Shown: piece by piece, positions 10,178-11,308 of the stretch
How positions within the stretch are numbered: the first letter of the stretch is position 1
Layout: every line of letters starts with the position of its first letter
Assembly (NCBI GenBank): GCA_019661845.1
Contig: JAIFWL010000002.1
Coordinates: 1-12,686 of the forward strand
Origin: Candidatus Parcubacteria bacterium
GTDB taxonomy: Bacteria; Patescibacteriota; Minisyncoccia; Phycocordibacterales; Zambryskibacteraceae
DNA length: 12,686 nt
Direction: 5' to 3'
The notes under the pieces: generated by a model
What the model was told of the DNA's origin: nothing
The model's database searches: none
Seen by the model: only the letters and a program-made list of their open reading frames with translations
Made by a program: the position numbers and the translations under genes

Positions 10178-10738
10178 ATGCTTGATTACAACGAAGCGAC
10201 GGTACACAAATACATCATCTACGAAAACGAGCCGTGGGAAGTTATCGCTTCACATGTCTTTAGAAAACAGCAGAGAAAGCCTGTCAATGCAGTAAAACTG
10301 AGAAATCTTATAACCGGCAGAATTACTGAGGTTTCCTTCCACGTATCAGACAAGGTTGAGGAAGCCGATATTGATAAGAGTCAGGTTAAATATCTTTATA
10401 CTAATCGTGGTGAATACTGGTTCGCTGAAGCGAATGATCCAAGCAAGCGTTTCCAACTTCCTGAAGAGATGATTGGTCCGGGCGCGAAGTTTCTTAAACC
10501 TAACACCGTCGTTGATGCGATGATTTTCGACGAGAAGATTATTGGTATCAAGTTTCCTATCAAGATGGAGCTTAAAGTAATTGAGGCGCACGATGCTACT
10601 CGTGGTAACACTGCCCAAGGTGCTACCAAAGCAGTGAAGCTTGAGACAGGTGCTGAGATCCAAGTACCGATGTTTATCAAAGAGGGGGACGTTGTGCGGG
10701 TAAATACAGAGACCGGTGAGTATACAGATCGAATATAA
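10178..10738 (+). CDS. efp: Elongation factor P
   Basis: EF-P enters the ribosomal E site and rescues ribosomes stalled on polyproline. The 186-residue length and three beta domains (about 1-64, 66-126, 128-186) are standard. Family landmarks are ENEPWEVIASH, KLRNLITG, YLYTNRGEYWFAE, IKFPIKMELKVIEA and the C-terminal ETGAEIQVPMFIKEGDVVRVNTETGEY. In the ungapped alignment I made by eye with E. coli EF-P, the modified Lys34 corresponds to Gln32 here, in the tip RKQQRKPVNA. The canonical lysine is therefore missing, although Arg33 and Lys34 are adjacent. No modification enzyme is encoded in the window. The last 62 bp overlap a convergent small membrane-protein ORF. Confidence 0.96.
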   Translation: MLDYNEATVHKYIIYENEPWEVIASHVFRKQQRKPVNAVKLRNLITGRITEVSFHVSDKVEEADIDKSQVKYLYTNRGEYWFAEANDPSKRFQLPEEMIGPGAKFLKPNTVVDAMIFDEKIIGIKFPIKMELKVIEAHDATRGNTAQGATKAVKLETGAEIQVPMFIKEGDVVRVNTETGEYTDRI

Positions 10739-10982
10739 AACCGAGGAAGAATCCGAGTATTGCCCAGTACCCTATTACGAAGATGAAGTCTTGTGAGAGG
10801 ATGACAGCGCTGTCACCGAAAATTTTGTATACAAAGATAAGTGGAAGGAATATCGGCTTAGCGAAATAGTCTGACAAACAACTCTGGCCAAGTGAAGCTG
10901 GACAAAGTCCTTTGAGTAAAATTAAAACAGCAATAACTGCTGGTCCAAAAAAGAAACCTTTTACCGCATACGGAATTCGCAT
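10677..10982 (-). CDS. Small polytopic membrane protein, hypothetical
   Basis: With the ATG at 10982 the product has 101 residues, starting MRIPYAVKGFFFGPAV. A TTG at 11000 would extend it by six residues but lies inside the neighbouring inverted repeat. Three hydrophobic segments are visible: about 5-25 (YAVKGFFFGPAVIAVLILLK), 40-56 (FAKPIFLPLIFVYKIFG) and 65-87 (DFIFVIGYWAILGFFLGFIF). Two cysteines in CPASLGQSCLSD lie between the first two. The tail is polar (THRSLYLPAQRPPL). It overlaps the 3' end of efp by 62 bp on the opposite strand. A TATAAT box ends 6 nt before the ATG. I do not recognise the family; consistent membrane topology and a well-placed promoter support a real gene. Confidence 0.6.
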   Translation of the reverse strand: MRIPYAVKGFFFGPAVIAVLILLKGLCPASLGQSCLSDYFAKPIFLPLIFVYKIFGDSAVILSQDFIFVIGYWAILGFFLGFIFDLYTHRSLYLPAQRPPL

Positions 10983-10988
10983 AGAAAC

Positions 10989-10994
10989 ATTATA
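10989..10994 (-). promoter_or_regulatory. -10 box of the small membrane-protein gene
   Basis: TATAAT on the minus strand is followed by six bases and the ATG at 10982, so transcription would begin at or next to the start codon. TGCTATATAAT also reads as an extended -10 motif. It abuts the 111-bp inverted-repeat element; no good -35 is seen. Confidence 0.5.
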
Positions 10995-10996
10995 TA

Positions 10997-11107
10997 GCAA
11001 AAAGAAAACCTAGGTTATCTAGCCTCTCGCAGGCCGACTGGGCCGAGAGAGCGAAATTTGCACCGGCAAATTATCGCGAGGCTAAGGAAACTAGATTTTC
11101 TTTTTGC
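10997..11107 (-). terminator. 111-bp branched palindromic element / probable bidirectional terminator
   Basis: The outer arms 10997-11013 and 11091-11107 are complementary over 17 bp with one exception. That pair is a U-G wobble in minus-strand RNA but a C-A mismatch in plus-strand RNA. Inside lies a 7-bp stem (11020-11026 with 11078-11084). It encloses an 11-bp hairpin with one bulged base (11051-11077, loop ACCG) and a GC-rich hairpin (GGCC 11032-11035 with GGCC 11041-11044). CTCTC (11024-11028) can pair instead with GAGAG (11045-11049), so an alternative fold exists. Each strand ends in TTTTCTTTTTGC. The element starts at the base after the rpsR stop. I infer transcription termination on both strands, but it is far more elaborate than a normal terminator. 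Confidence 0.7.
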
Positions 11108-11308
11108 TTACCTACTTACGTATGGAAGTAAACCGAGGAAGCGAGCTCGCTTGATAGCTTCAGCGAGTGAGCGCTGATCTACTGAAGGCACTCCAGAGCG
11201 CTTTCGAGACTGCACACGTGCGTGTGGAGTAAGGAACTTCTTAAGAGTCTCGACGTCCTTGTAGTCGATGTGCTCAATCTTATTTTCTTTAAAGTAATTC
11301 TTTTTCAT
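11108..11308 (-). CDS. rpsR: 30S ribosomal protein bS18
   Basis: This small-subunit protein sits on the 30S platform next to bS6. The 66-residue product contains the family signature: HIDYKDVETLKKFLTPHARV, then SRKRSGVPSVDQRSLAEAIK and RARFLGLLPYV. It is shorter than E. coli bS18 (75 residues) and has no N-terminal cysteines for zinc. It is the last gene of the tatD–rpsF–ssb–rpsR group, 26 bp after ssb, and its stop codon abuts the large inverted repeat. No Shine-Dalgarno is seen; the upstream sequence is A/T-rich (ATAAATAAAT). Confidence 0.95.
   Translation of the reverse strand: MKKNYFKENKIEHIDYKDVETLKKFLTPHARVQSRKRSGVPSVDQRSLAEAIKRARFLGLLPYVSR

Follow-up and report, generated by a model that had tools for sequence, protein, structure and literature searches.

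What is a 111-bp branched palindrome doing directly behind a ribosomal protein gene in a Candidatus Parcubacteria bacterium, a member of the Patescibacteria, whose genomes are tiny and are said to be streamlined? The palindrome lies in a 12,686-nt stretch of contig JAIFWL010000002.1 that was analysed here as a whole (the window), between rpsR, encoding ribosomal protein S18, and the next ORF. A first-pass annotation, made from the sequence alone, had left the choice among an oversized terminator, a small RNA, a mobile palindromic (REP/MITE-like) unit and a switch controlling the neighbouring gene. The data described below point to the mobile unit. The palindrome probably belongs to a dispersed, apparently mobile family of DNA palindromes in the Patescibacteria that gain an arm by fold-back copying.

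The element occupies positions 10997–11107, and all features mentioned here are on the minus strand. As had been noted, it begins immediately after the stop codon of its host gene, rpsR (11108–11308; Pfam Ribosomal_S18, PF01084, E 3e-18), the TAA being at 11110–11108 in the ORF list. The upstream (5′) half of the outer arm, GCAAAAAGAAAATCTAG, starts with the first base after that stop (11091–11107; identified from the sequence, the inverted repeat and the fold), and the downstream (3′) half, CTAGGTTTTCTTTTTGC, is T-rich like a terminator tail (10997–11013; from the sequence and the inverted repeat). The first-pass description of these arms as 17 bp with one imperfect pair was accurate, and both sit within an inverted repeat of 34 nt with 82% complementarity. 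Inside them, stem P2 (5′ strand UAGCC, 11080–11084; 3′ strand GGCUA, 11020–11024; assigned from the sequence and the family structure) encloses two hairpins supported by the fold and by the family alignment. H1 (11051–11077) reads GCGA-U-AAUUUGC with a loop of CGGU, the commonest loop in the family being UGCU; H2 (11024–11049) reads CUCUC-GGCC, loop CAGUC, GGCC, bulge UGC, GAGAG, and is well conserved. The CTCTC/GAGAG pairing had been thought to compete with the inner stem. It in fact forms the base of H2 and is present together with P2, the two disputing a single G at the junction, which is the first base of the P2 3′ strand.

The branched fold with its two inner hairpins is real. RNA folding gave −48.6 kcal/mol for the plus and −49.7 kcal/mol for the minus strand, as compared with approximately −27 for shuffled sequences (z −5.4 and −7.4, respectively), and 0 of 200 shuffles folded equally well. 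A chance palindrome is ruled out by this test and by the further genomic copies. A known RNA family was also considered and set aside, as no Rfam covariance model matched at the gathering level over the window, or at E ≤10 over positions 10950–11150. The TATAAT box reported beyond the far end of the element is present at 10989–10994, 6 nt ahead of the ATG (A at 10982) of the next ORF; no promoter was reported at that position by a consensus scan. Counted from this ATG, the ORF (10677–10982) encodes a hydrophobic protein without a Pfam match (107 aa in the ORF list, where it starts at an upstream TTG). The sequence GGTTATAAT was seen at a similar place behind rpsR in several relatives, and this, together with a TATAAT only 6 nt from the start codon, would suit leaderless transcription.

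A search for further copies of the arms or core, proposed in the first-pass annotation, was productive both in the organism’s own genome and in its relatives (genomes and loci are designated below by the G- and L-numbers of this analysis). With blastn against 99 related genomes, pieces were found on contigs lacking an rpsR match (for example, in G012, G002, G007, G048 and G078), seven core pieces were found in G076 (six at E 2.6e-4 and one at 0.012), and further sites of related pieces were found in G029 and G009. Because the element, when used as a plain blastn query at E ≤10, returns mostly noise from the A/T-rich arms, covariance models were employed: R1, derived from an alignment (A1) of ten cores with hand-chosen boundaries, and R2, built from 83 copies. 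R1 at E ≤0.1 matched 76 of 119 relatives, with 34 matches in G048, and the organism’s own, incomplete, genome contained seven R1 matches at E ≤1, six of them with E <0.002. R2 at E ≤0.001 yielded 42 matches in G056, 32 in G043, 26 in G085 and 21 in G041. At the rpsR loci, the element was seen in 3 of 20 (G000, G012 and G029).

In a phylum-wide draw, 38 of 379 genomes matched (E ≤1e-5, with stricter filters). Broken down by our own count of kinship groups, matches were obtained for 2 of 2 genomes in the group formed by the organism’s own genome and its family, 11 of 15 from other families of the same order, 2 of 15 from other orders of the class and 23 of 347 from outside the class. One strict DNA pattern, scanned over species genomes, found at least 119 stretches, some of which share a genome. 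Among the 80 matches listed, 55 carry the name of a lineage, which is patescibacterial in every case; the other 25 are bacteria without a lineage name. The lineages among those listed include Nomura-, Kaiser-, Yonath-, Zambryski-, Taylor-, Adler-, Niyogi-, Giovannoni-, Yanofsky- and Doudnabacteria, the Parcubacteria group, one Microgenomates and others. A phage element was considered and dropped, one strict pattern (CTGCTGN{10,26}CTCGSSCCGTCGSSCTSCG) giving 0 matches in viral contigs. No description of such repeats in Patescibacteria was found in the part of the open-access literature that was surveyed, and the family is apparently undescribed so far.

The common structure derived from A1 comprises the outer arms (P1), P2, H1 and H2, and the conserved part is a three-way-junction core of approximately 65–75 nt formed by H1, H2 and P2. 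H1 is a bulged hairpin with a loop that is mostly UGCU. In most rows H2 follows the form NNN-UC-NNNN-C(A)GUC-NNNN-U(G/C)C-NNN, with a C[A]GUC loop and a 3-nt bulge; its loop and internal loop are conserved and its stems vary (GGCC/GGCC, GCGC/GCGC, GCUC/GAGC, CGCC/GGCG). The covariation test that had been suggested revealed massive compensatory change: among copies that are phylogenetically non-independent, here as in the pairing counts below, the structure-fitted alignment contained 610 cells changed on both sides, as compared with 188 ± 11 in shuffles, with 89% of cells paired, and the unfitted A1 contained 39 such changes, as compared with 13.9.

The kind of pair that is tolerated tells a different story from the one first proposed. 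The imperfect arm pair of the window copy is a U-G wobble only in minus-strand RNA, and this had been taken as a hint that the RNA form is what is kept. That argument fails at the family level. Paired positions in the distinct rows of alignment A2 comprised 1888 Watson–Crick, 55 G-T, 63 A-C and 172 other combinations, and those in a second set (84 R2 matches over 76 loci, one of which, L302, repeats a first-set element) comprised 2035, 56, 71 and 174, respectively, the ‘other’ classes indicating that some of the mismatches counted are noise from the alignment. Within the upper stem of H1, the second set gave 575, 2, 3 and 8 for the same classes. The control, the acceptor, anticodon and T stems of 110 distinct tRNAs encoded at the loci under study, gave 83 G-T and 10 A-C, a ratio that may be inflated since ARAGORN itself favours standard pairs. 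The element and tRNA ratios differ at Fisher p 4e-11 and 1e-12 for the two sets, with relatedness ignored. A structure selected as RNA should tolerate G-U over A-C, and the palindrome family does not, so that a reading as an RNA switch is unsupported; on these sequence comparisons, DNA copying, not RNA, seems to keep the pairing. Double changes without intermediates, GC to CG for example, are what template switching would predict, as we infer from the published account (PMC8794818).

Core and outer arms behave differently. Near-identical cores are found at unrelated loci of one genome, between outer arms that are different yet self-complementary. Two copies in G028 have an identical core and unrelated arms, each palindromic and abutting the core, and the flanking 20-mers of this pair are 0.55 (left) and 0.60 (right) identical. 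Five copies in G043 (L367–L370 and L379) have cores of 0.95–1.00 identity and five different arms; for the G043 pairs, the mean identity was 0.96 for the core and 0.64 and 0.63 for the flanks, as compared with 0.52 for unrelated 20-mers. When all 61 same-genome pairs with core identity ≥0.93 were considered, genome means for the flanking 20-mers were 0.54–0.77 in five of six genomes, the exception being the single pair in G094 (0.90/1.00). Of the 157 copies, 88 have a perfect outer run of at least 12 bp; of 785 controls fitted with another copy’s right flank, 1 does. The remaining 69 copies lack such a run, and that of the window copy is only 4, because its mismatch interrupts it. The left arms of the 157 copies are 42% A and the right arms 43% T. 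That the core recurs at many genes, with arms matching each site, argues for DNA copying rather than for a regulatory RNA switch.

The origin of the arms can be judged at sites where related genomes vary in the presence of the element. An rplS gene was identified in 27 of the 31 family genomes, and an element follows it in only three (G028, G009 and G010), in a different version in each. Inverted copies of the rplS end extend to 13 nt in G028 and to 15 nt in G009, as compared with at most 9 in the 24 element-free genomes; in G010 the inverted copy is broken, with a longest match of 6 nt and two mismatches. The rplS end of the element-free G029 is almost as in G028, yet it has no inverted copy. 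The arms in G028 and G009 extend 10–12 nt into the coding sequence. Inspection by eye revealed plain terminators behind the element-free rplS of G025, G023, G027, G021 and perhaps G019, starting at or behind the stop codon, and none before the next gene at the remaining element-free loci. In the DnaG of G002, the codons of the left arm (KSDI) agree with several relatives and the peptide of the right arm (QYPIS) does not; the arms of the G005 dnaG and G002 secA copies are imperfect. At rplS and dnaG, therefore, the upstream arm looks like host sequence and the downstream arm like its inverted copy, a polarity judged at these two loci (rplS and the G002 dnaG) only.

The dnaG copy just mentioned is one of five that lie in frame within genes: dnaG in G002 and G005, polA in G005 and G006, and secA in G002. 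Pfam searches of the carrier proteins returned SecA, DNA_pol_A and Toprim domains, and the DnaG fragment of G002 had a weak DnaB_bind match (21.9 vs a cut-off of 20.6). All five are read in the same frame, giving, for example, RKTTEVFSAENLPDSRADALRDDFSS in the G006 PolA and RKTALSSSGEDVRSTPADAVRDGFSS in the G002 DnaG, and they occupy linkers of variable length, as judged from 28 PolA and 30 DnaG sequences, carriers included. These five are the only confidently intragenic copies among the 157 distinct copies examined; a sixth candidate within an ORF (L080) was dropped as doubtful, given a weak antisense score. The G002 and G005 dnaG copies occupy the same codon and belong to different core subfamilies, which requires conversion or repeated insertion. 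A different peptide, GQTLSTDSQGLT or nearly so, recurs in PolA or DnaG linkers of G006, G011 and G012 (L433, L403 and L409), and its presence in unrelated proteins suggests a second in-frame repeat family in those genomes. Peptides of the SPNPLL type, resembling translated REP-type repeats, were seen in the linkers of L413 (G025 polA) and L443 (G004 dnaG).

The positions of the 157 distinct copies were determined relative to codon-scored gene calls. The nearest called upstream gene was in the sense orientation for 72 copies and antisense for 39, and for 53 of the 72 its stop codon was within 40 nt of the core. The downstream gene was antisense for 57 copies (22 of them with a stop within 40 nt) and sense for 39. 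Stops within 60 nt were found upstream only for 49 copies, downstream only for 17, on both sides for 7 and on neither for 84, the last partly because many loci are short. Unrelated genes precede the core, among them those that we take from their translations to be rplB, rplL and rplS, and, since the same core is also found inside dnaG, polA and secA, the proposal of a switch controlling the next (membrane-protein) gene is unsupported. A simple terminator scan, which considers only loops of 3–8, did not call the window element, and the right arms are T-rich. Element-free terminators with similarly extended A/T arms were found at loci of G043, G048 and G056, and this similarity, together with the A-rich left and T-rich right arms, indicates that some arms may stem from older terminators. 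The palindrome behind rpsR probably also ends transcription. Of the four options first listed, then, the mobile palindromic unit fits best, the oversized terminator is a plausible by-product and the RNA switch is unsupported.

Signs of mobility are clearest in the G076 subfamily, the members of which are approximately 115 bp long and share terminal repeats. Target duplications of 7–13 nt, read by eye, were observed at five of its eight copies; none was seen at the few copies outside G076 that were inspected in the same manner. The terminal repeat had 19 matches, either singly or as the paired ends of units of approximately 113–116 bp. No long element that might be an autonomous partner was seen among these 19, and no mobilising gene was found.

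For the family as a whole, the core would be copied to new sites as DNA. Once landed, it would fold, so that its 3′ end came back beside the upstream flank, and DNA synthesis would then copy that flank (the 3′ end of a gene, or a spacer) as an inverted repeat, creating the arm in one step by template switching or fold-back. Subsequent template switches would keep the stems perfect. The A-rich and T-rich arms of copies behind stop codons would probably terminate transcription, and such copies may have been retained for that reason. The more specific proposal, that the core itself primes fold-back synthesis of the host flank, so that each insertion becomes a site-matched palindrome doubling as a terminator or in-frame linker, is advanced only tentatively.

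It could be argued instead that intrinsic terminators were there first and received the core in their loop, the arms being the old terminator stem. The closeness of stop codons upstream of 53 of 72 copies, the A-rich left and T-rich right arms, and the element-free terminators with extended A/T arms in G043, G048 and G056 are all as this would predict. However, no leftover loop lies between arms and core in the G028 pair or the G043 set, a plain terminator was visible by eye behind rplS in only approximately four or five of the 24 genomes that lack the element, the G028 and G009 arms reach into the rplS coding sequence whereas plain terminators start at or behind the stop, and the dnaG, polA and secA copies are away from terminators. 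We consider this explanation unlikely. Selection on an RNA fold (a switch, a 3′ UTR domain, a terminator module or another structured regulatory or small RNA) is less probable still. The very strong covariation, the conserved loops, the stable fold and the excess of sense over antisense upstream genes (72 vs 39) would all suit it, but in neither set does G-T outnumber A-C, presence at rplS varies among related genomes, copies are translated within essential proteins and Rfam offers no match.

Least probable is mobilisation as REP elements by an IS200/IS605-like Y1 transposase (RAYT). The size and hairpins of the palindromes are REP-like, Y1 proteins occur in 76 of the 119 relatives, and their presence overlaps weakly with that of the element (Fisher p 0.046). 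Against this, Y1 count and copy number are uncorrelated across the 119 genomes (Spearman rho 0.09, p 0.33), and Y1 matches are absent from eight genomes with at least six copies, among them G048, which has 32 copies in this comparison. Y1 (RAYT-like) transposases are common among these relatives (G117 has the most, with 11 matches) and might be serving other repeats.

REP/BIME elements, which are associated with RAYT transposases, are extragenic palindromes behind genes, and a REP hairpin has a GTAG-type tetranucleotide at its foot. By this general description, the present family resembles them in its position behind genes and in having some copies adjacent and inverted; it differs in that its copy number is not linked with Y1 transposases. 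Intrinsic terminators likewise lie directly behind stop codons with a T-rich 3′ arm, whereas the palindrome has a long branched core in place of a short loop. MITEs, including the terminator-like SPRITE of pneumococcus, are presented in PMC10969869 as short, multi-copy inverted repeats. Only the G076 subfamily, with its common long terminal repeats and its 7–13-nt target duplications, is similar; in G028, G043, G048 and G056, by contrast, the outer arms differ among copies with like cores. The same source describes the Rickettsia palindromic elements (RPE) as dispersed palindromes of approximately 150 bp, some of which are read in frame within unrelated genes and encode a shared peptide. Compared by published description, the Patescibacteria family is also a palindromic element of approximately 100–150 bp with many genomic copies, and its five in-frame copies in DnaG, PolA and SecA share a frame and a peptide; it differs in its hosts, in its three-way-junction core with site-specific arms and in having only 5 of 157 copies within genes. 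Template-switch hairpins, in which perfect stems arise in one step and compensatory changes are instantaneous, were studied in RNA genes in PMC8794818; here such events are proposed at repeated landings of one core.

Despite the tiny genomes of its hosts, the family reaches approximately 40 copies per genome, with some copies lodged in DNA polymerase I, primase and SecA themselves. By the usual test of covariation, compensatory changes such as these would be taken for those of a functional RNA. Covariation without a preference for wobble pairs points to pairing kept by DNA copying, and is thus a warning for RNA discovery. The family also provides a natural system in which to watch the creation and repair of hairpins by template switching at repeated sites. 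Fold-back arm-making at the moment of landing, if true, would be a mode of insertion distinct from known transposition.

Several individual loci deserve mention. Tandem or inverted neighbouring copies were observed at L095 (G041), L345 (G029) and L361 (G005). Behind rpsR in G015 (L016), the gene end is followed by its own 12-nt inverted copy without a core, and in G014 (L004) by a 12-nt inverted copy with one mismatch (by eye), also coreless; these are possible bare fold-back products. Finally, three copies in G000 (L131, L132 and L135), none of which has long outer arms, directly abut a convergent tRNA gene at its end.
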